From positions 124,001 to 188,000 of the forward strand of contig MWFC01000001.1 of the NCBI GenBank assembly GCA_002071415.1: 64,000 bases of DNA, written 5' to 3'. The DNA is from Bacteroidetes bacterium ADurb.Bin012. Its GTDB lineage: Bacteria; Bacteroidota; Bacteroidia; Bacteroidales; TTA-H9. A model generated the notes under the pieces. That model saw only the letters and a list, made by a program, of their open reading frames with translations, was not told the DNA's origin and ran no database searches. This document shows positions 3,019 to 31,259 of the stretch, in pieces. The position numbers and the translations under genes were made by a program. How positions within the stretch are numbered: the stretch's first letter is position 1; every line of letters begins with the position of its first letter.

Positions 3019-3291
3019 ATGAACAAAGCAGAATTAATCGATGCCATTGCTACCAATTCCGGACTTACCAAAGCAGCCTCGAAGAAAGCCCTCGATGCCA
3101 CCATCTTAGCTATTTCTGAAGCTTTGAAACAAGGCGACAAAGTCTCTCTGATTGGTTTTGGAACTTTTGGTGTAGCCAAAAGAAGTGCCCGCACAGGACG
3201 CAATCCTCGAACCAAAGCTCCCCTTCAAATCCCTGCCAAAAATGTTGTGAAATTTAAACCCGGCAGTGAACTTTCAAAAAGTGTTAAGTAA
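3019..3291 (+). CDS. hup: HU-family DNA-binding protein
   Basis: A 90-residue histone-like protein that bends and compacts DNA as a dimer. It opens with the canonical MNKAELIDAIATNSGLTKAASKKALDA helix pair, followed by GDKVSLIGFGTFGV and the beta-arm signature KRSARTGRNPRTKAPLQIPA (about residues 53-72) with the conserved Pro that intercalates into DNA. It ends in VVKFKPGSELSKSVK. Length and motifs match the Bacteroidota HU of about 90 residues. It is preceded by a good promoter and followed by a strong bidirectional terminator, so it is transcribed alone. Confidence 0.96.
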   Translation: MNKAELIDAIATNSGLTKAASKKALDATILAISEALKQGDKVSLIGFGTFGVAKRSARTGRNPRTKAPLQIPAKNVVKFKPGSELSKSVK

Positions 3292-21625: not shown

Positions 21626-24600
21626 TTATTTTAGGGCAGTAATGAGGATTTTTTGAATGGAGAGGTTGGCTTGTTCGGGTACCAGGCTCAACCATGTGGT
21701 AGTGGCTGCATTCCATCCCGTAGTTGAGTTCAATGGTGCAACAAAGGTATTGGTAACAGGGTTTTTTAATAATTTAATAACCACGCCTCCTGTTTTGGTT
21801 TTTCCGTGGCCATAGTTTACGACGATTTTGGCGTCTTCTTGTAAAGGATGGGAGAGGCTGACTACTATAAAAGCTTCGCTTTTGGCAGGATATGTTTTTG
21901 CATCAAGTGAAAATTGAACCATTTGATTGGTTTCGAGATTTAATGGTTCGTCTGTAATTTGCGTCAGAGTATCTGAGAGTATCAGTTTCAGAGTTCGCTG
22001 CAAGCCTTCGATGGCTTCCTGACGGTGAGGTTCGAGATGCAGGGCAATCAAATAATTATCGAAAGCTACGCCAAGATCGTTTTTATTTTCGGCAATTTTC
22101 CCTTCAGCAAGCGCTTTTTCATAAGTAATTCCTTCCACTTCGCGTGGAGTAATGAGTAAGGCATTGAGTTCGGCAATTTTTTTCGAGGGGTAGTCTTCGG
22201 TTGGTTTTAAGTTTCGAGCCGTTAGATAATGTTTGAGAGCATCATTATAAAGTCTGACGTCGAAACAACTATCGGCCGATTTTATGGCGTGTTGAAAACG
22301 AGCTTCTAAAAGGGCATTGTCGCTAAGAATTTTTTGTATTTCTTTTATCTTTTGTCCGGGTAATGCCTCAGAAGGATTAACTTCTGCCGCTTTCCTGTAA
22401 AAGCTAATAGCTTCTTCAAGTGCGCCTTGCCGGTAAAGGCTATCGGCTTGTCGAAAATTGTTTTTATATGCAAGTTGTCGTTGTTCTATGGCTTGTATTT
22501 CTTCATCAATTTGTTTGAGCCTGTTTGCAGCATATTCCTGATCGGGCATCACCTGTGTGGCTTGCATGAAAAACTGACGTGCTTCATATAATTTTCCTGC
22601 CTTGTATGAAGCATCAGCTTTGGTAATAAGATTGTGATACTGTTCGGTTCGAGTAGCAATTTCCTGAATTATATTCCGAAGTTCTGTAATTTTTTGCTTT
22701 GGATATTCTTCATTCGGTTTCAATTGAACAGCATTTTCATAAGCAAGGACTGCTTGGGAATAATTTTTTAGTTTATCGAGACTATCAGCGGTTTTTATCC
22801 ATCGAGTATAATCCTGTTCTCGCTTCTCGATGGTTTTTATTTTTGTTTCAATGGCTAAGATTTGATCCAGTGGATAAGTCTCATTCTGCTTGATTTGACT
22901 GGCTTCCTTATAATATGTTAAAGCCGTTATCAAATTATCTGATTTATATAATGAATCAGCTTTGGCAATGGCTTGCTGGTATTTGAGTTCGTTAGCCTTC
23001 ATCTGTGCAATAATTCTATGAAGAGCTTCTATTCTATCTTTCACTTCTTCATTGTTCGGCTTGATAGATAAGGCATTCTGATACATCTCGAGAGCATTTT
23101 GATAATCTCCTGCGTTTTCGAGATTCTTTGCATTAGCCTTGGCAAGAGTAAAGGCATCGTTTTCGGCCTTTTCTTTTTCGGTCTTTAAAATCTTAATCTG
23201 TTCGATACGTGATTGTGGATAAGGATTTCCGGGCATAAGCTGGCTTGCTTGCTGATAAAAACCGAGCGCCTTATCGAGATCCTGAGCATCAAAGGCCTCA
23301 TTTCCCCTTGCTACGTAATCATTGAAAGACTTTTCTTTTTCTGCCTTCGCCAGAATGAGTGAATCCATTTGTTGAACCTTCTGACTGGGATAAACTTCAT
23401 TTGGATTGATAGCTTGTGCTTTTTGATATTCTAATTTAGCTTGCTGCCATTTCCCTTCTTTAGCCAATTGATTGGCTTGGACAATAGTTTGCCTGTAATT
23501 GGCCTCAATAGCAGCTTTTTGTTCGAGTTGCAGTTGTATTTCTTCGACTTTCTGTTGAGGATATTTTTCGTCGGGATAAATTTTCAGCGCATTTTGATAT
23601 GCTGCCAAGGCATTTTTCAAATCTCCCGTTGCTAAGTATTGGTCGGCAAGTTTGATGTTAGATTCATAAGTTTCGCGTTTTTGCCGCAAATTGCCAAGAA
23701 TATTTTCAATTTCGGAAATACGCGCGCTGGCTGCTTTATCATTAGGTTGAATTTTCAATACCTGCCGATAGTAAACTAAAGCCGAGTCATACTGTTTGGA
23801 TTCAAAGAAATTTTGGGCTTCTGAAAGCGTCTGACTGTAAAGTTTCAGGCGATTTTGCTCTACTATTAATAGGGAATCGCTCTGGGCTTTTTTTCTTGAA
23901 GCCAAAAGATCGTTTGTTTTTAATTGTATAGCTTCTGCATAAGCTTTCGAAGCATTCTCATATTGCTTTTCGCTTAAATATCTATCGCCTCGAGCTAAAG
24001 TTTGAGCATACTTTGCCTCTTTCAAGGCAATATCCTGACGAATTCGAGATGATTCCTCTATTTTTTGAGAGGCAAGAGCATGATTGGGCTTAAGTGCTAA
24101 AGCTTCGCGATACAGTTTCTCGGCTTGTTCGTAATCTTTTTGATTTTCTGCTTCACCAGCCCTGGCTAAAAGCATTTCGAATTGTTCATCAATCGATTTT
24201 TGAACTAATAAAGTGCTGTCGATGGAATGTATTCTATCGAGGGCTCTTTTGTCATTGGGAAAGATTTCGAGTGCAGATTGAAGAACTTCTTTTGCCTTGG
24301 CAAATTGATTATTTTTCAATAATCTATCTGCTTGAACCAACTTTTCGTCAAAGGCGTTCCGAAAGGCTTGCTGTTGCTTGAATAAATCTTCGATTTCTTG
24401 AATTTTTGTCTTTGGATAAGTTTCGTCGGGTTTCAACTTAATAGCACCTTGGTAAAGAACAAGGGCATCGTTATACATCTTATTGGCAAGCAAGTTGTCA
24501 GCTTTTTGTATGGCTTGTTGATAGTTTGCCTGAAGCTGTCGGAAGTTTGTTTCGAGTTCGTCGATTTGTGCAAGTTTAGCCCTTACTTGCGCATTATTAG

Positions 24601-25969
24601 GTTGAAGTTCGGAAGCTTGCTGAAGGAAGCTTCTAGCTTGAGAATAATTTTTGGCGACAATATATTGATCGGCTTGTTTCAAAAGTTCTTCGAAATGAAT
24701 GGCAATTTGTTTTTGCTCGTTGAATTTTTGTGTGAGTATTGCGATTTGTTCTTGGGGATAGGTGGAGTCGGGTAGGAGTTTAGAAGCCGATTGGTAAGTT
24801 TGAATGGCTTTGGTGAATTCTCCATTTTTTTCGAGCTCGGCTGCTTGATGAATGAGTTGTTCATACGATCTACGATTTTTTACCAACTGATCAATCCGTG
24901 GCTGCAATGATTTGATTTTCGAAGAACCATAACTGTCGTTCGGTTTGAGTAGAAGGGCATCGGAAAATAATTGATACGCTTTTTCTATTTCGCCCGATTT
25001 CAAATAATTATCTCCTTCGTTGATCAATGATTTATAGCGCTGCTGCCTCGATGATTCATCGGCATACAAAGCCTGGATTTCGCGAATACGTGTTTTAGGG
25101 TAAGTTTCATCGGGATTGATGTCAATGGCCTCTTTATAGGCTTTCATAGCTTCATCGAACTTTCCTGCTGCGAAGGCTGCATCTCCTTTGGCTTTGGCTT
25201 TCTGATACTGTGAGCTGATTTCTGCCTGATAAGTCAGGATGTCATTAATTTCATCGATTTTTTGTTGGGCTTCAACACCTTCGGGTAAAATTTGATTAGC
25301 TTCCGTAAATAGTTGGAGTGCTTGTTCATATTTTTGAAGTTGATATGCCTGATTGGCTTCAGCAAGCTTTTGTTGATAAAGTATGCGAGCTTGTTTCTCT
25401 TGCTGCTGACTTTGTGCGAGCCCCTGAGCAGCCTGTTCATCGTCCCCCTTTATCTGCAACGCACTGCTAAATGCTTTCGAAGCATGTTGATATCGTTTGG
25501 CTTTCAGAGCATCATTCCCTTCAAGCATGGCTTCATTGTATCGAGCAATTTGTTTCTGCTGGTTTTCTATCTTTTTCTTTAATTCATTCAAACGTGAATG
25601 TAAATGAGGGTCGATAAATGAAAGATGTTCCAAGTGCCCCACCAGTTTATTGGCTGAGGCGTAATCCTTATTGCGAAATGCAAGTTCAGCTTCATAAAGC
25701 AGAGTCTGAGCTTCCTTATTAAATTGCTCGGCCGATGATAAGGCCTTTTCCAGCTCGATAATACGATTTTGAACTTTTGTATCACCAGGTTTCAACTTAT
25801 CTGCATACCTATACGCCGATAAAGCCGATCGAAGATCATTTACTCTGTAAACACTGTCGGCAAATTTCACGGCTTTTTCGAAAGGGGAGAGGTTTTGCTG
25901 AGCATTGGCGGTAATATAAAATAATGACGAATAGGTGATTATTAAAACGAGGCGAAGGGTATTTCTCAT
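21626..25969 (-). CDS. giant secreted or periplasmic TPR-like repeat protein
   Basis: A 1447-residue protein. The longest frame starts at 26041, but a TAATTTTG box at 26024-26031 lies downstream of that point; ATG 25969 gives a clean signal peptide (MRNTLRLVLIITYSSLF..ANA). From about residue 30 to 1320 there are about 23 tandem units of about 56 residues. Each has a helix like YQQAIQKADNLLANKMYNDAL, a second helix like VLYQGAIKLKPDETYP, and a third like KTKIQEIEDLF. The P-[DN]-E-x-Y-P turn recurs in more than half of the units. The last 130 or so residues form a distinct beta-rich domain (around MVQFSLDAKTYPAKSEAFIV). The role is unknown; it looks like a long periplasmic scaffold or spacer. 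No partner gene is adjacent. Confidence 0.82.
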   Translation of the reverse strand: MRNTLRLVLIITYSSLFYITANAQQNLSPFEKAVKFADSVYRVNDLRSALSAYRYADKLKPGDTKVQNRIIELEKALSSAEQFNKEAQTLLYEAELAFRNKDYASANKLVGHLEHLSFIDPHLHSRLNELKKKIENQQKQIARYNEAMLEGNDALKAKRYQHASKAFSSALQIKGDDEQAAQGLAQSQQQEKQARILYQQKLAEANQAYQLQKYEQALQLFTEANQILPEGVEAQQKIDEINDILTYQAEISSQYQKAKAKGDAAFAAGKFDEAMKAYKEAIDINPDETYPKTRIREIQALYADESSRQQRYKSLINEGDNYLKSGEIEKAYQLFSDALLLKPNDSYGSSKIKSLQPRIDQLVKNRRSYEQLIHQAAELEKNGEFTKAIQTYQSASKLLPDSTYPQEQIAILTQKFNEQKQIAIHFEELLKQADQYIVAKNYSQARSFLQQASELQPNNAQVRAKLAQIDELETNFRQLQANYQQAIQKADNLLANKMYNDALVLYQGAIKLKPDETYPKTKIQEIEDLFKQQQAFRNAFDEKLVQADRLLKNNQFAKAKEVLQSALEIFPNDKRALDRIHSIDSTLLVQKSIDEQFEMLLARAGEAENQKDYEQAEKLYREALALKPNHALASQKIEESSRIRQDIALKEAKYAQTLARGDRYLSEKQYENASKAYAEAIQLKTNDLLASRKKAQSDSLLIVEQNRLKLYSQTLSEAQNFFESKQYDSALVYYRQVLKIQPNDKAASARISEIENILGNLRQKRETYESNIKLADQYLATGDLKNALAAYQNALKIYPDEKYPQQKVEEIQLQLEQKAAIEANYRQTIVQANQLAKEGKWQQAKLEYQKAQAINPNEVYPSQKVQQMDSLILAKAEKEKSFNDYVARGNEAFDAQDLDKALGFYQQASQLMPGNPYPQSRIEQIKILKTEKEKAENDAFTLAKANAKNLENAGDYQNALEMYQNALSIKPNNEEVKDRIEALHRIIAQMKANELKYQQAIAKADSLYKSDNLITALTYYKEASQIKQNETYPLDQILAIETKIKTIEKREQDYTRWIKTADSLDKLKNYSQAVLAYENAVQLKPNEEYPKQKITELRNIIQEIATRTEQYHNLITKADASYKAGKLYEARQFFMQATQVMPDQEYAANRLKQIDEEIQAIEQRQLAYKNNFRQADSLYRQGALEEAISFYRKAAEVNPSEALPGQKIKEIQKILSDNALLEARFQHAIKSADSCFDVRLYNDALKHYLTARNLKPTEDYPSKKIAELNALLITPREVEGITYEKALAEGKIAENKNDLGVAFDNYLIALHLEPHRQEAIEGLQRTLKLILSDTLTQITDEPLNLETNQMVQFSLDAKTYPAKSEAFIVVSLSHPLQEDAKIVVNYGHGKTKTGGVVIKLLKNPVTNTFVAPLNSTTGWNAATTTWLSLVPEQANLSIQKILITALK

Positions 25970-26023: not shown

Positions 26024-26031
26024 CAAAATTA
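26024..26031 (-). promoter_or_regulatory. -7 box TAATTTTG of the giant repeat protein
   Basis: TAATTTTG on the reverse strand matches TAnnTTTG. It puts the transcript start near 26019, leaving a leader of about 50 bases before the ATG at 25969. Confidence 0.55.
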
Positions 26032-26098
26032 GTATATTCATGATGGATTCTGAAGACCTATTTTGTTTTAACCTTTTTCAATAGGATAAAAGGTGATA

Positions 26099-26495
26099 TT
26101 ACATTTGTAATTTAAATATACAAAATTAACATATTTAAACTCAAATGCAATCTGTAATTTTATTGTTGTTAACAATTTACAATTATCAATTAAATTTATT
26201 TTACATTATAATATAATTATTTATAAACCAGATGAATATAATTTTTTATTAAATTGATACTTTAAGTAATGGAGCGAATTTTTGACTATGTTAAAAAAGT
26301 TTGAATTTATACAAAAAGGACTTAAAATATGGATAACATTAGTTAAATCCATATAGTTATAATTTATTTTATCAAATTACATTTGTGAATTAAAATTCAA
26401 TTCAAATTATAAATTAGGTTACAATTGTAATAACTTTACAAAGTTACATTTGGATAAAGGAATATCCAATCATAAAATTAAGTTTATATTTGTAA
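26099..26495. repeat. Recurring TTACATTTGTAA-type inverted repeat
   Basis: Copies: TTACATTTGTAA at 26099-26110 (perfect), TTACATTTGTGA at 26377-26388 (one change), TTACAATTGTAA at 26419-26430 (perfect palindrome), TTACATTTGGAT at 26444-26455 (right arm degraded) and TTATATTTGTAA at 26484-26495 (one change, on the XRE promoter). Looser half sites occur at 26153, 26177 and 26211. Several copies also contain TACATTTG, which itself matches the -7 consensus, so they may be operators, tandem promoters or both. Confidence 0.5.
26485..26492 (+). promoter_or_regulatory. -7 box TATATTTG of the XRE regulator
   Basis: TATATTTG matches TAnnTTTG, 19 bases before the ATG at 26512. It lies within the operator-like copy at 26484-26495. 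Confidence 0.6.
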
Positions 26496-26511
26496 ATAAA
26501 TTTTATGAAAA

Positions 26512-26991
26512 ATGATCGAGCGAATAAGACAGATCATGAGCAAAAAAGGAATGACACCATCACAATTTGCCGATGCTATTGGGATACAACGTTCGGGGAT
26601 GTCGCATATACTTTCGGGACGCAATAAACCAAGTCTCGATTTTGTGATGAAAGTCCTGAACCGGTTCCCTGACATCGATCCAACTTGGCTTTTAAAGGGC
26701 GATACTATCGCTAAACCTAAACAGGACATAAAACCCAGGGAATTGACTTTGTTTTCTGATGAAGAAAATGAATTTGATAAGGATGAGACGCAAAATAACG
26801 AACGGCCCAAAATTACCAAACCCTCGGAGTCGAAACCTATATCAGTAAAAGTGGATGAACCTGTTGCTTATTCTCCCACTCCCAAGCAAAGGAGCGAAGA
26901 AGTCATGGGTAAAAATTCACCTCATCGTATTTCAAAAGTCATTTTGCTATACGAAGATGGTTTCTATGAAATAATGAGCAATCCTCAATAA
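26512..26991 (+). CDS. XRE-family helix-turn-helix regulator
   Basis: A 159-residue DNA-binding protein. The N-terminal 65 residues form a Cro/C1-type HTH: IERIRQIMSKKGMTPSQFAD, AIGIQRSGMSHILSGRNKPS and LDFVMKVLNRFPDIDPTWLL. The rest is polar and low in complexity (about 70-130, rich in Lys, Glu, Pro and Ser), ending with a short conserved-looking segment HRISKVILLYEDGFYEIMSNPQ. Proteins of this kind (HTH plus disordered tail) are widespread in Bacteroidota and their targets are mostly unknown. Repeated inverted repeats upstream, one on its own promoter, suggest self-regulation. Its last 7 bases overlap the convergent ndk gene. Confidence 0.88.
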   Translation: MIERIRQIMSKKGMTPSQFADAIGIQRSGMSHILSGRNKPSLDFVMKVLNRFPDIDPTWLLKGDTIAKPKQDIKPRELTLFSDEENEFDKDETQNNERPKITKPSESKPISVKVDEPVAYSPTPKQRSEEVMGKNSPHRISKVILLYEDGFYEIMSNPQ

Positions 26992-27407
26992 AACCTTTCG
27001 AGCGATGAAAAGAAGAAATTTGCCTCACGCTGGGCATTTTCGTCAGAATCGCTGCCATGAACTGCATTTTGCTGAATATCTGTGCCATACGATGCTCTTA
27101 TAGTTCCTTGAGTAGCCTTGGCAGGATCGGTATTACCAATCAAAGTTCTAAAATCATCAACGGCATTTTCTTTTTCTAAAATGGCGGCAATAATGGGTGC
27201 CGATGAGATAAATCTTACCAAACCCTCGTAAAAAGGTCTTTCTTTGTGAATCTCATAAAATTTTCCGGCTTCTTCGCGGCTCAACCAGATCATTTTCATT
27301 GCTATAATCTTAAACCCATGTTCAATTATAAATTGAATAATGTTTCCTGTATAATTCCTCGAAATAGCACAGGGCTTAATCATGCTAAAAGTAATGTTTC
27401 CCGACAT
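26985..27407 (-). CDS. ndk: nucleoside diphosphate kinase
   Basis: Transfers the gamma-phosphate of ATP to other nucleoside diphosphates through a phospho-histidine. I start at ATG 27407 (MSGNITFSMIKPCAISRN), giving 140 residues, because a TATGTTTG box covers 27440-27447, over the start of the longer frame. The active site His117 lies in NAVHGSDSDENAQRE, and the nucleotide-binding segment is RTLIGNTDPAKATQGTIRASYG (about 87-108). Length and motifs are normal for the family. Divergent from the DHH operon and convergent with the XRE gene. Confidence 0.95.
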   Translation of the reverse strand: MSGNITFSMIKPCAISRNYTGNIIQFIIEHGFKIIAMKMIWLSREEAGKFYEIHKERPFYEGLVRFISSAPIIAAILEKENAVDDFRTLIGNTDPAKATQGTIRASYGTDIQQNAVHGSDSDENAQREANFFFSSLERFY

Positions 27408-27439
27408 GATAAAATCGATTTTAAAGTAGTTTGAATGAG

Positions 27440-27447
27440 CAAACATA
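27440..27447 (-). promoter_or_regulatory. -7 box TATGTTTG of ndk
   Basis: TATGTTTG on the reverse strand matches TAnnTTTG and gives a leader of about 28 bases to ATG 27407. Confidence 0.6.
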
Positions 27448-27514: not shown

Positions 27515-28552
27515 ATGATAGAAAAAAATAACTTTTACCTTAGAGAAGCAAAGAAAATTGAGGATTTACTTCAAACTCATCAAAATATCCTCATTATTAG
27601 CCATCCATATCCCGATGGGGATTCGATAGGAGCTTCTCTTGCATTATATATGGTTTTTAAAAAGCTTGGACATGAAGTAAATATTATCATTCCTAACGTT
27701 CATCCTCCTTTTTTGGGCTGGCTACCAGCAGTTCAAAACATTATAATTTACGAACAGCACATACAAGCAGCCCGGAAACTTATTCAGGAAACCCGGTTGG
27801 TTTTTTGTGTTGATTTTAATAATCTCAAACGTCTGAATCAGCTTAGTAGCCTTTTCAATGAGGATAATCATAAGTATGTTCTCATCGATCATCATCCTCA
27901 ACCCGACAATTATTTCGATGTAAAATTTCATACCATTCATGTGAGTTCAACCTCTGAACTTGTATATGAACTTTTGCTCATGATGGGTTTGGAAGATAGC
28001 ATTGATTTAGATGTTGCATTAAATCTCTACGTTGGTATAATGACCGACACGGGTTCTTTCAGTTATTCTTGTAATTATCCACGCACTTACGAAATTACTG
28101 CCCGTTTGATCGAAAAGGGTATAGATGCCCAAAAGACGCACAATCTTATTTATGATACTTTTTCGGAGCTTCGCATGCGATTACTCGGGTATTTGCTGCT
28201 TAACCGCATGATTGTGATGCAAGAGTATAAAACCGCCTATATGTGGCTTAGCCTCGAGGACCAGAAGACTTTTCAATTTCAACCAGGTGACGCCGAAGGT
28301 TTTGTGAATTATGCACTTGCAATCGAAGGCATTAGATTGGCGGCATTTTTTACCGAAAAACCCGATATGGTTCGTGTGAGTTTTCGCTCGAAAGGCAGCT
28401 TTTCGGTAAACGAACTGGCAAGGAAATATTTTGATGGAGGTGGGCATCTCAACGCAGCCGGTGCCAATAGTTACAAAACACTTCAAGAAACCCTTCGGTA
28501 TTTCGAAGCGGTGGTGAAGGAGAATATCATTGCTTTATGCCAGAAAGATTAA
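27515..28552 (+). CDS. DHH/DHHA1 phosphoesterase (NrnA-like oligoribonuclease / pAp phosphatase)
   Basis: A 345-residue manganese-dependent phosphoesterase. Metal ligands follow the family plan: His30, Asp34 and Asp36 in ISHPYPDGDSIGAS, Asp100 in FCVDFNNL, and the DHH motif at 125-127 in VLIDHHPQPDN. A further Asp lies in VGIMTDTGSFSYS. The C-terminal DHHA1 domain has the substrate-binding GGGHLNAAGA loop. Members of this size degrade short RNA oligonucleotides (2-5 nt) and 3'-phosphoadenosine 5'-phosphate; c-di-AMP or pGpG breakdown is also known in relatives. Its last 16 bases overlap the first FKBP gene, so it heads a five-gene operon. Confidence 0.9.
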   Translation: MIEKNNFYLREAKKIEDLLQTHQNILIISHPYPDGDSIGASLALYMVFKKLGHEVNIIIPNVHPPFLGWLPAVQNIIIYEQHIQAARKLIQETRLVFCVDFNNLKRLNQLSSLFNEDNHKYVLIDHHPQPDNYFDVKFHTIHVSSTSELVYELLLMMGLEDSIDLDVALNLYVGIMTDTGSFSYSCNYPRTYEITARLIEKGIDAQKTHNLIYDTFSELRMRLLGYLLLNRMIVMQEYKTAYMWLSLEDQKTFQFQPGDAEGFVNYALAIEGIRLAAFFTEKPDMVRVSFRSKGSFSVNELARKYFDGGGHLNAAGANSYKTLQETLRYFEAVVKENIIALCQKD

Positions 28553-29061
28553 CTCTGCTGATTATTATTGGTTTAGCTATAATATCCTGTCATTCTCCCG
28601 AAAAGGGAAAAAGCAACCAAATTCTCGAACCAGATTTATATGATACATTTGTAGCTTATAATCAGAGAATGACAGAATATGAGAATCAGCTTATCGAGGA
28701 CTATATGGCAAGATATCATTTAAGTATGAATCAAACTGGCACAGGGCTTCGTTACAAGATTCTAAGGGAAGGAGAAGGCCCAAGGATTAGAGAAGGGCAG
28801 GAAATTGCTCTTGATTATAAAATGTATTTGCTCACAGGCGATCTGGTTCGAGAATCAAAGCCAGGAAATCCTTTACGATTTACCGTAGGCAAATCCGATA
28901 TAATTTCTGGCCTTGATGAGGCCGTTAGATTGTTTCGAAAAGGCACAATTGCAAAAATTATTATACCTTCGCACTTGGCTTACGGAGCTACGGGTGATCA
29001 GCAATATATCCCTCCACGAGCCACTTTAGTGCTCGATATTAAAATTGTTGAACCTTATTAA
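28537..29061 (+). CDS. FKBP-type peptidyl-prolyl isomerase lipoprotein, GldI-like
   Basis: A 174-residue lipoprotein: signal peptide with lipobox IISC (Cys at about residue 18), a helical linker (about 30-65) and one FKBP domain (about 68-174). The domain keeps the fold-defining GEGPRIREGQ, SGLDEAVRLFRKGTIAKIIIPSHLAYGA and the closing ATLVLDIKIVE strand. The Phe-Asp pair of the active site is replaced (GDLVRES instead of GT-x-FDSS), so catalysis may be weak. Size, lipobox and position after a DHH gene resemble GldI, the gliding-associated isomerase of Bacteroidota; this is an inference. Predicted to act on folding of envelope or T9SS proteins. Confidence 0.82.
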   Translation: MPERLTLLIIIGLAIISCHSPEKGKSNQILEPDLYDTFVAYNQRMTEYENQLIEDYMARYHLSMNQTGTGLRYKILREGEGPRIREGQEIALDYKMYLLTGDLVRESKPGNPLRFTVGKSDIISGLDEAVRLFRKGTIAKIIIPSHLAYGATGDQQYIPPRATLVLDIKIVEPY

Positions 29062-29072
29062 CACATTACATC

Positions 29073-29933
29073 ATGAAAACTAAAATTACCTATTTTTTTG
29101 CTCTTACCTTGATAGCTGTTACCTTGATTTCGTGTAGCAAATATCCTGGTTACAAGAAAACCGATTCAGGTTTGTATTACAAGTTTTACGTCAAGTCGGG
29201 CGATACTGCCAAACCTAAGGTTAACGACATCTTGAAACTTTATATGTCGTATGGTACTAAAGACAGTCTTTTGATGGATGGCAAAGAGGAATTTCTTCTG
29301 CAGTTAACCAACCCACAATTCAAGGGTGATATCAATGAAGCCCTTGCCATGATGTCGAAAGGCGATAGTGCAAGTTTCATCATGCCTGCCGATTCATTTT
29401 TCAAGAAGATAGTACATGTTCCGTTGCCTGACTTTATCGACAGCACAGAAATGCTTTACTTTAATGTAAAAATGATCGATTTTTTCAGTCAGGAAGAATT
29501 CATCAAGCGTATGAATGAGGAAAATGCGCTCAAAGAACAGAAGGAGCTAAGCGATCTGGAAAGTTATCTTAGCGCTAATAATATTACGGTGCAACCTACC
29601 GAGAGCGGGCTTATCTACATCGAGATCGTTAAGGGAACTGGTCCACAAGCAACCCAAGGGAAGAAGGCCAAGGTTCATTATACAGGAACCTTGCTCGATG
29701 GAACCAAGTTCGATTCATCATACGATCATCCTGATAAACAACCTTTAGAATTTATAATAGGTGAACAGCGTATTATTCCTGGTTTCGAAGAAGGTGTAAG
29801 TTTGATGAAAAAAGGAGGCAAAGCCAAATTGATTATGCCTTCCAAGCTTGCTTATGGCAGCCGTCCGGCTGGGCCTAGTATTCCTGCATTCTCTACTCTG
29901 GTATTTGAGGTTGAACTCATTGATGTTCAATAA
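29073..29933 (+). CDS. FKBP lipoprotein with one degenerate and one canonical domain
   Basis: A 286-residue lipoprotein (lipobox LISC, Cys22). The N-terminal half (about 27-135: YPGYKKTDSGLYYKFY..., KGDINEALAMMSKGDSASFI) is a degenerate FKBP unit without the catalytic FD pair. A charged helical linker (about 140-180) joins it to a C-terminal canonical FKBP domain (about 185-286) with VHYTGTLLDGTKFDSSYDH, IPGFEEGVSLMKKGGKAKLI, SKLAYGSRPAGPSIPAFSTL and the closing FEVELIDV. The N-terminal unit is clearly a paralogue of the one in the next gene. Second FKBP gene of the operon, 11 bases after the first. Confidence 0.88.
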   Translation: MKTKITYFFALTLIAVTLISCSKYPGYKKTDSGLYYKFYVKSGDTAKPKVNDILKLYMSYGTKDSLLMDGKEEFLLQLTNPQFKGDINEALAMMSKGDSASFIMPADSFFKKIVHVPLPDFIDSTEMLYFNVKMIDFFSQEEFIKRMNEENALKEQKELSDLESYLSANNITVQPTESGLIYIEIVKGTGPQATQGKKAKVHYTGTLLDGTKFDSSYDHPDKQPLEFIIGEQRIIPGFEEGVSLMKKGGKAKLIMPSKLAYGSRPAGPSIPAFSTLVFEVELIDVQ

Positions 29934-29945
29934 TTTTGAACGTTT

Positions 29946-31259
29946 TTGCATGATATGAGCATTCGCCATTTACGTTTCATTTTATTTATTTTTGTCATCG
30001 GCTGCATCGTTTATGGGTGCAGCCGATTTAGTGGTTATAAGAAAACCAGCGACGGTCTATATTACAAGTTTTACCGACAAAATGAAGGCCCGCATCCAGA
30101 TACGAGTAATATCGTACAGATAAATCTAAGTTATCGCTACGGGGATTCCGTATTATTTAGCAGCAACATTTTAAGAGAACCCATGAATATGATGGTAAAT
30201 CCTCCTGAATTTCGGGGCGACCTCAATCAGGCTTTAATGATGATGAGCCCAGGTGATAGTGCTTCATTCCTTATACGAGCCGATTCGTTCTTCTTTTGCA
30301 CTCTGAAATACAATCGTCTGCCAAAGATAAGCACCCCCGACTCGTATGTTACACTCGAAGTAGGCATGACAAAGATGTGGACAAAACAAGAGCAACGCCA
30401 AAAGGAACAAGAATGGATCATAGCTCGAAAAAATTCCGAAAAGGAGGAAATTCAGAGATTTATTAAGGAAATTCGATTCGAAGGAGATACTACTCCCGAG
30501 GGTTTGTATTTTAAAATTACTCGAAAGGGTGAAGGGCCAACTCCTAAACCCGGTGATCAGGTTACATTGAAATTCAGTGTAAATTTGATCGATGGAACCA
30601 AATTGTACTCGTCGTGGGATAAAGGAATACCAATGACCATTGAATTTGGGAAGAAATTCGATACTGAGGGAATCGACATTGCCTTATCGAGAATGAATAA
30701 AGGTTCTGTCGCTCGATTGATAATTCCGAGCAAATTAGCATTTGGAGAAAAAGGTCGCCCTCCTTTCATACCCCCTTATTCTCCTTTGCTTTATGATGTC
30801 GAAATAGTTGACATAAAATCAAAAATCGATAAACAAAAAACCAATCAGGAGCAAGTGGAAAAACTTCGTCTGAGTGAGCAGAAACGAATAGAAGAATATT
30901 TGGTTAAGAACAATTTGAAAGTGAAGCCACAGGCCAATGGACTTTATTTTATAGAGTTGAAAAAAGGGCAGGGGGTTCCTCCCAAAACCAATCAAACGGT
31001 TCGGGTGCATTATACAGGCTGGTTACTGGATGGAACGAAGTTCGATTCTTCATATGATAAAGGAAAACCTTTCGAATTTATTTTAGGGCGTGGAAATGTT
31101 ATCGAGGGCTGGGGGAAGGCCGTTGCTCAAATGCAAGCCGGCTCAAAGGTAAAAATTATTTTGCCGAGCCATCTTGCTTATGGTGAACGTGGAGCACCTC
31201 CTAAAATTCCTCCTTTTGCGCCTTTAGTCTTCGAAATTGAATTGCTCGATTATGAATAA
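29946..31259 (+). CDS. three-domain FKBP-type prolyl isomerase lipoprotein
   Basis: A 437-residue lipoprotein. The start may instead be the ATG at 29955; either gives a signal segment with lipobox VYGC. Three FKBP-like units follow. Unit 1 (about 27-135, SGYKKTSDGLYYKFYRQNEG... PGDSASFLIRADSFF) is degenerate and parallels the N-terminal unit of the previous gene. Unit 2 (about 180-285) has fold residues but reads GTKLYSSW where FDSS is expected. Unit 3 (about 325-437) is canonical: VHYTGWLLDGTKFDSSYDKG, VIEGWGKAVAQMQAGSKVKI, SHLAYGERGAPPKIPPFAPL. Charged helices link the units. Its TAA overlaps the ATG region of the next gene. Confidence 0.88.
   Translation: MHDMSIRHLRFILFIFVIGCIVYGCSRFSGYKKTSDGLYYKFYRQNEGPHPDTSNIVQINLSYRYGDSVLFSSNILREPMNMMVNPPEFRGDLNQALMMMSPGDSASFLIRADSFFFCTLKYNRLPKISTPDSYVTLEVGMTKMWTKQEQRQKEQEWIIARKNSEKEEIQRFIKEIRFEGDTTPEGLYFKITRKGEGPTPKPGDQVTLKFSVNLIDGTKLYSSWDKGIPMTIEFGKKFDTEGIDIALSRMNKGSVARLIIPSKLAFGEKGRPPFIPPYSPLLYDVEIVDIKSKIDKQKTNQEQVEKLRLSEQKRIEEYLVKNNLKVKPQANGLYFIELKKGQGVPPKTNQTVRVHYTGWLLDGTKFDSSYDKGKPFEFILGRGNVIEGWGKAVAQMQAGSKVKIILPSHLAYGERGAPPKIPPFAPLVFEIELLDYE

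Follow-up and report, generated by a model that had tools for sequence, protein, structure and literature searches.

Autoregulating repressors of the XRE/Cro-C1 type (P22 c2, 434 Cro, SinR, DdrO and the C proteins of restriction systems) are the closest described counterparts of the locus reported here. The HTH_3 fold is shared, and so is a palindromic operator at the repressor's own promoter that overlaps the core promoter. Unlike those repressors, the present one is encoded by a chromosomal gene with no relative found among the viral contigs of IMG/VR, its operator arrays flank a bend-like element, and the protein carries a disordered linker and a C-terminal beta-hairpin. A bending site between arrays for one protein has precedents: the early operator of phage Mu has an IHF site between O1 and O2, and in P1 parS IHF binds between ParB boxes. 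The present locus is probably likewise arranged but, in contrast to both, has no transposase or ParA, its bending factor is a candidate only, and it is a chromosomal locus found phylum-wide. The operators of BlaI/MecI and CopY are TACAnnTGTA. The inner 10-bp palindrome of the motif described below is identical to these; the regulator, however, belongs to the XRE/HTH_3 group and not to the winged-helix Penicillinase_R group. Lastly, MatP is a site-specific DNA-binding protein tied to the terminus region, as the present protein appears to be, but matS has 23 copies spread over 800 kb (PMC3330122), whereas the sites here are clustered at one promoter and the fold is different. In the papers searched, we found neither a published account of the motif or its regulator nor a site-specific terminus organiser in Bacteroidota.

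Operator-like repeats in front of the XRE gene

The window (the whole 64-kb stretch of DNA that was analysed) contains an XRE gene preceded by a spacer with a G+C content of 18% (26042-26511). A first-pass annotation had placed five copies of TTACA-N2-TGTAA in this spacer, and all five are present: two perfect, two with one change and one with two. The Bacteroidota -7 consensus is TAnnTTTG, and the last copy had been said to overlap such a box; TATATTTG indeed falls within it. The putative operators and associated features are as follows.

26024-26031, minus strand: -7-like box of the divergent TPR gene, CAAAATTA
26099-26110, plus strand: distal operator with perfect arms, TTACATTTGTAA, no mismatches
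26377-26388, plus strand: proximal operator, TTACATTTGTGA, one mismatch; exact in locus L009
26419-26430, plus strand: proximal operator, a perfect palindrome, TTACAATTGTAA, no mismatches; the L009 counterpart has one mismatch
26444-26455, plus strand: weak proximal operator, TTACATTTGGAT, two mismatches
26484-26495, plus strand: promoter-proximal operator superimposed on the -7 box, TTATATTTGTAA, one mismatch
26485-26492, plus strand: -7 box of the XRE gene, TATATTTG, inside the last operator copy
26512-26991, plus strand: XRE/Cro-C1-type repressor of 159 residues (HTH 1-65, disordered linker, C-terminal beta-hairpin 142-156)

On the other side of the spacer, and divergent from the XRE gene, lies the gene for a secreted TPR-repeat protein (21626-25969), with a strong AT skew (-0.2) across the gene region. 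Its length of 1447 residues, as first annotated, corresponds to a form that begins at 25969 with a signal peptide; the start at 26041 does not belong to this form and is the first ATG of a longer, 1471-residue frame. With the start at 25969, the spacer measures ~542 bp.

Perfect matches to the 12-mer number two in the window versus 0.10 expected, and none of 2000 dinucleotide shuffles of the spacer contained four or more copies at ≤1 mismatch. When any 5-N2-5 palindromic word was allowed, however, 85 of 500 spacer shuffles equalled the observed count, hence the spacer alone is weak evidence: the copies are real and, judged by the window's spacer, suggestive. Across the whole genome the exact 12-mer occurs seven times versus five for a mirror control, and at ≤1 mismatch 102 times versus 158. 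A large regulon was rejected because exact genomic sites are about as numerous as those of the mirror control.

Conservation of the motif and of its putative ligand

The XRE protein is encoded by a single-copy gene and scores 32.7 bits against Pfam HTH_3 (curated cut-off 23). In its AlphaFold model, a five-helix HTH is predicted with pLDDT >90 and the C-terminal hairpin (142-156) with pLDDT ~90; the linker between them is variable and disordered. The nearest folds are P22 c2, 434 Cro, SinR, HigA and DdrO. Orthologue matches were obtained in 49 of the 60 relatives searched, nearly all from different families, and in a phylum-wide sample the protein was detected at E ≤ 1e-10 in 43 of 297 genomes; it is thus widespread but not universal. 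The hairpin is matched by a loose pattern in 91 of 104 orthologues. Residues 143-159 (26938-26988) read KVILLYEDGFYEI in the window, with KIVIFYSDGTFxEY-like sequences elsewhere, and the hairpin is possibly a tail for oligomerisation or partner binding.

Two other identities were considered for the locus. A phage repressor was rejected since the family pattern had no match in the IMG/VR viral contigs and the PHROGs matches were centred on the HTH. A HigA-type toxin-antitoxin locus was also rejected, as no toxin gene is adjacent: the neighbours encode the TPR protein, a nucleoside diphosphate kinase (NDK) and a DHH-family protein. The ndk gene (26985-27446) meets xre tail to tail and overlaps its 3' end; of 29 loci with an ndk-family gene, most likewise have a convergent ndk. 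Three genes in a row for FKBP-type peptidyl-prolyl isomerases (28537-31259) follow downstream of the DHH-family gene, and two domains were matched in the third. Other loci also have FKBP-like genes close to the XRE gene.

The first-pass annotation had proposed a search for the 12-mer near XRE orthologues in related genomes. We assembled 104 non-redundant regions upstream of XRE genes; a scan of named genomes covered 80 loci from Bacteroidales, Flavobacteriales and Cytophagales. At ≤1 mismatch, 262 sites were found in 100 of the 104 regions versus 9.4 in shuffles, leaving four loci with no operator at this threshold. A de novo ranking of inverted repeats (5-N-5, gaps of 0-12) over the same 104 regions placed TTACA-N2-TGTAA first, at 54 loci, against a shuffle maximum of nine. 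Site density was 8.63 per kb upstream of XRE genes versus 0.29 per kb upstream of neighbouring genes. A second, independently drawn set came mostly from family f57: of its 22 scored loci, 21 contained the motif, with 85 sites in all versus 2.3 expected, and seven further loci of the draw were left out.

The motif is also specific to this gene. A search of 43 genomes for two exact operators no more than 38 bp apart gave 13 pairs, each directly upstream of an XRE gene; the mirror control gave none. No further target gene was found among exact and ≤1-mismatch sites in the window's genome or among paired exact sites in the 43 genomes. The confinement of all 13 pairs makes the protein look like a dedicated autoregulator, although it may have weaker targets, or targets with one site, at other places. 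Moreover, the motif accompanies the XRE gene through Bacteroidota orders whatever its neighbours. Because the motif follows the gene among orthologues and paired sites are confined to it, the XRE protein is very probably the ligand of TTACA-N2-TGTAA, and a near-invariant stretch around the recognition helix (orthologue alignment A1) fits a conserved operator. Binding of the motif by this protein, with control of the xre gene itself, had been suggested at the outset; the comparative counts favour this, and we hold the pairing of protein and motif, together with self-control, to be highly likely. The control is very probably repression, the sign that we infer from the layout. Finally, operator spacings are periodic at 10.9 bp (R = 0.32; 99% of the null at 0.19).

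A conserved element between the operator arrays

A second conserved feature emerged from the alignment of orthologous upstream regions: an element of ~58 bp with a consensus of roughly TAAA-N4-YT-N2-AAA-YCAR-T-N4-TTA-N8-TTATATAAAGTAATA-N-TTTAA. The window's copy and a candidate for its protein partner are as follows.

26208-26265, plus strand: conserved ~58-bp element between the operator arrays, with an A/T tract, AACCAG at 26226-26231 and TACTTTAA at 26258-26265
3019-3291, plus strand: DNABII (HU/IHF-family) protein of 90 residues, unlinked (PF00216, E = 7.7e-33, at G000:C1:127019-127285)

A two-block position weight matrix, held out by protein cluster, scored above 20 in 35 of 104 loci, compared with one at most in reverse-complemented, reversed or shuffled sequence. 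In a whole-genome search with the model, the XRE locus was the best match in the window's genome (E = 2.6e-5) and the top match in several other genomes too. Extra genomic copies (L158, L160-L163) scored weakly, had no operators nearby and were discarded as background. Operators flank the element, and all but one keep clear of the interval from -38 to +46 around it; distal operators are present in most orthologous loci. An Rfam scan of the region returned no match. RNAalifold predicted no base pairs in the element, which argues for a DNA element rather than an RNA. Nor is the element dif, which was found separately as ATAATTTATATTATGTWAA.

The first block of the element fits W-A-Y-C-A-R-N4-T-T-R, the consensus for IHF of E. 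coli, and has an A/T tract at the place usual for IHF sites. This tract is the TAAA conserved at -14 to -11 from the CCA, upstream of the IHF-like core, and we would liken its position to that in the lambda H' site. The second half, TATAAAGTAATA-TTTAA, is not known from IHF sites. In the independent set, 8 of 22 loci have exact WATCARNNNNTTR (WATCARN4TTR) between -129 and -146, always on the same strand, versus 0.98 expected anywhere in 300 bp, and a WTTCAR variant at about the same place gave six hits in these 22 loci. Full matches to the IHF consensus number 6 among the 63 called elements of the first set; the window's own element, AACCAGATGAATA, is two changes away from the E. coli consensus and fits it poorly. 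On balance, the central element is probably an IHF/HU-type bending site, for which the products of the two PF00216 genes in the window's genome, one of them inside the window, are candidate bending factors.

The presence of operators on both sides of the element, together with their 10.9-bp phasing, suggests a bent repression complex. Dimers of the 159-residue protein would bind TTACAnnTGTAA; the gene-proximal site coincides with the -7 box, and its occupancy would block RNA polymerase. The ~58-bp element between the remaining sites would bind a bending protein of the IHF/HU type, and distal and proximal dimers, on the same face of the DNA, would join in one bent complex. We regard a loop joining the two arrays as evenly poised. 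Taken together, 26042-26511 is likely the autoregulatory region of a conserved Bacteroidota XRE repressor, with an IHF/HU-type bend and a bent complex.

In four loci, two same-strand copies of the element lie ~110 bp apart (L035, 437-498 and 546-615; L070, 3419-3481 and 3536-3600; L165, 2771-2823 and 2877-2939; L083, 3616-3684 and 3740-3798), and a simple loop does not explain these tandem copies. We also noted that contigs often end close to the XRE gene or a short way upstream of it (L010, L020, L026, L032, L035-L037, L040, L041, L043, L156 and L159), perhaps from the A+T-richness of the spacer.

The replication terminus and other readings of the locus

A dif-like site, ATAATTTATATTATGTTAA, occurs once in the window's genome.

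G000:C1:225062-225080: dif-like site, ~37 kb beyond the window's right end

We take this site and its counterparts in other genomes to be dif from the general bacterial dif pattern, alongside their observed single copy and their place at the skew terminus. The distance of the site from the window puts the window in the terminus region. The dif-like core is present in one copy in most genomes where it was detected. Among 31 genomes with both features on one contig, the XRE gene lies 0.9-317 kb from dif (median 76 kb; 74 kb in the window's genome), and three named loci (L077, L112 and L117) have dif within 3 kb. The side varies: dif is upstream in families f56 and f57 and downstream in f1, f19, f62 and f63. 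A replication origin at this locus was rejected, as the skew does not flip within the window and six genomes have their skew origin a long way from the gene.

These observations invite a reading in which the complex of XRE protein, operators and bend serves chiefly as a structural landmark that marks the terminus at one site, with autoregulation setting the protein level. In all ten complete genomes dif is 0.9-206 kb from the gene (≤5.3% of the genome), and in all six complete genomes with sampled GC skew the gene adjoins the terminus, at 0.00-0.12 of the genome from it. The failure of the paired-site search in 43 genomes to find other targets, and the resemblance of a bending site flanked by binding sites to P1 parS, also speak for such a role. 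However, inversions symmetric about the axis from origin to terminus could keep any terminal gene near dif without selection, hence we treat a role at the terminus only as a hypothesis. In addition, copies that overlap a promoter are the mark of a regulator, and the sites are confined to that promoter rather than spread as matS is: dispersal of the MatP/matS type was rejected, since the 271-kb terminus contig has two exact sites, both at the XRE promoter, and paired sites occur only at the XRE gene. We therefore consider a mainly structural role doubtful. It is, in our judgement, rather improbable that XRE protein on arrays around an IHF-type bend near dif forms, at one locus, a dedicated nucleoprotein site that helps to organise or time the end of the replication cycle; similarly speculative is the notion that such a site would do the work of MatP/matS with a repressor of phage type.

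The sites might instead act as a bidirectional switch, with the divergent 1447-residue TPR gene under their control as well, as the first-pass annotation had it. Distal operators in family f1 occupy the TPR-side half of the spacer, the window's operator at 26099 lies 130 bp away from the start codon of the TPR gene, and over all loci the density of distal operators beside the upstream gene is 7.5 per kb if that gene is divergent versus 1.8 per kb otherwise. Yet loci whose upstream gene is co-directional, or is a different gene, have distal operators as well, XRE-TPR adjacency is restricted to f1, and the conserved -7-like box of the TPR gene is ~70 bp from the nearest window operator (26099). 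Control of the TPR gene thus seems quite unlikely. The arrays appear independent of any divergent gene, and the difference in density would allow some divergent genes to be affected.

A third reading takes the copies for tandem promoters: TTACATTTG merely contains the -7 consensus TAnnTTTG and the palindrome is incidental. TACATTTG is present in three window copies, as first annotated (at 26100, 26378 and 26445), and some of the single exact sites in the rest of the genome are TACATTTG copies just 5' of start codons, for example at L004. Against this, copies whose core excludes TAnnTTTG on both strands number 119 versus 7.7 expected (~15-fold enriched), the perfect palindromes TTACAATTGTAA, TTACATATGTAA and TTACATGTGTAA are recurrent, and operator spacings are helically phased. 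As a full explanation, tandem promoters are therefore very unlikely; what survives of this proposal is that the start-proximal copy doubles as a promoter. Of the 104 loci, 91 have a TAnnTTTG box no more than 70 bp from the start codon; in 76 of the 91, the window included, this box forms part of an operator-like 12-mer (≤2 changes). As judged from this overlap, the start-proximal copy is promoter and operator together, and because the two coincide, occupancy should block the promoter.

Lastly, that another regulator with a similar operator, for example of the BlaI/CopY type, binds the copies and controls the XRE gene is most improbable: the core TACAnnTGTA is the BlaI/CopY box, a resemblance only, whereas the motif is found at the XRE gene in order after order despite different neighbours, every paired site in the 43 genomes is at an XRE gene, and no Penicillinase_R domain was found in the XRE protein and the eight neighbouring proteins scanned.

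Returning to autoregulation by the XRE protein, a regulator conserved in much of Bacteroidota, from gut, marine and soil members alike, would gain a testable function, a DNA site and a promoter architecture. The central element would indicate IHF-type bending sites in Bacteroidota, and the place of the locus near dif links the regulator to the terminus region.
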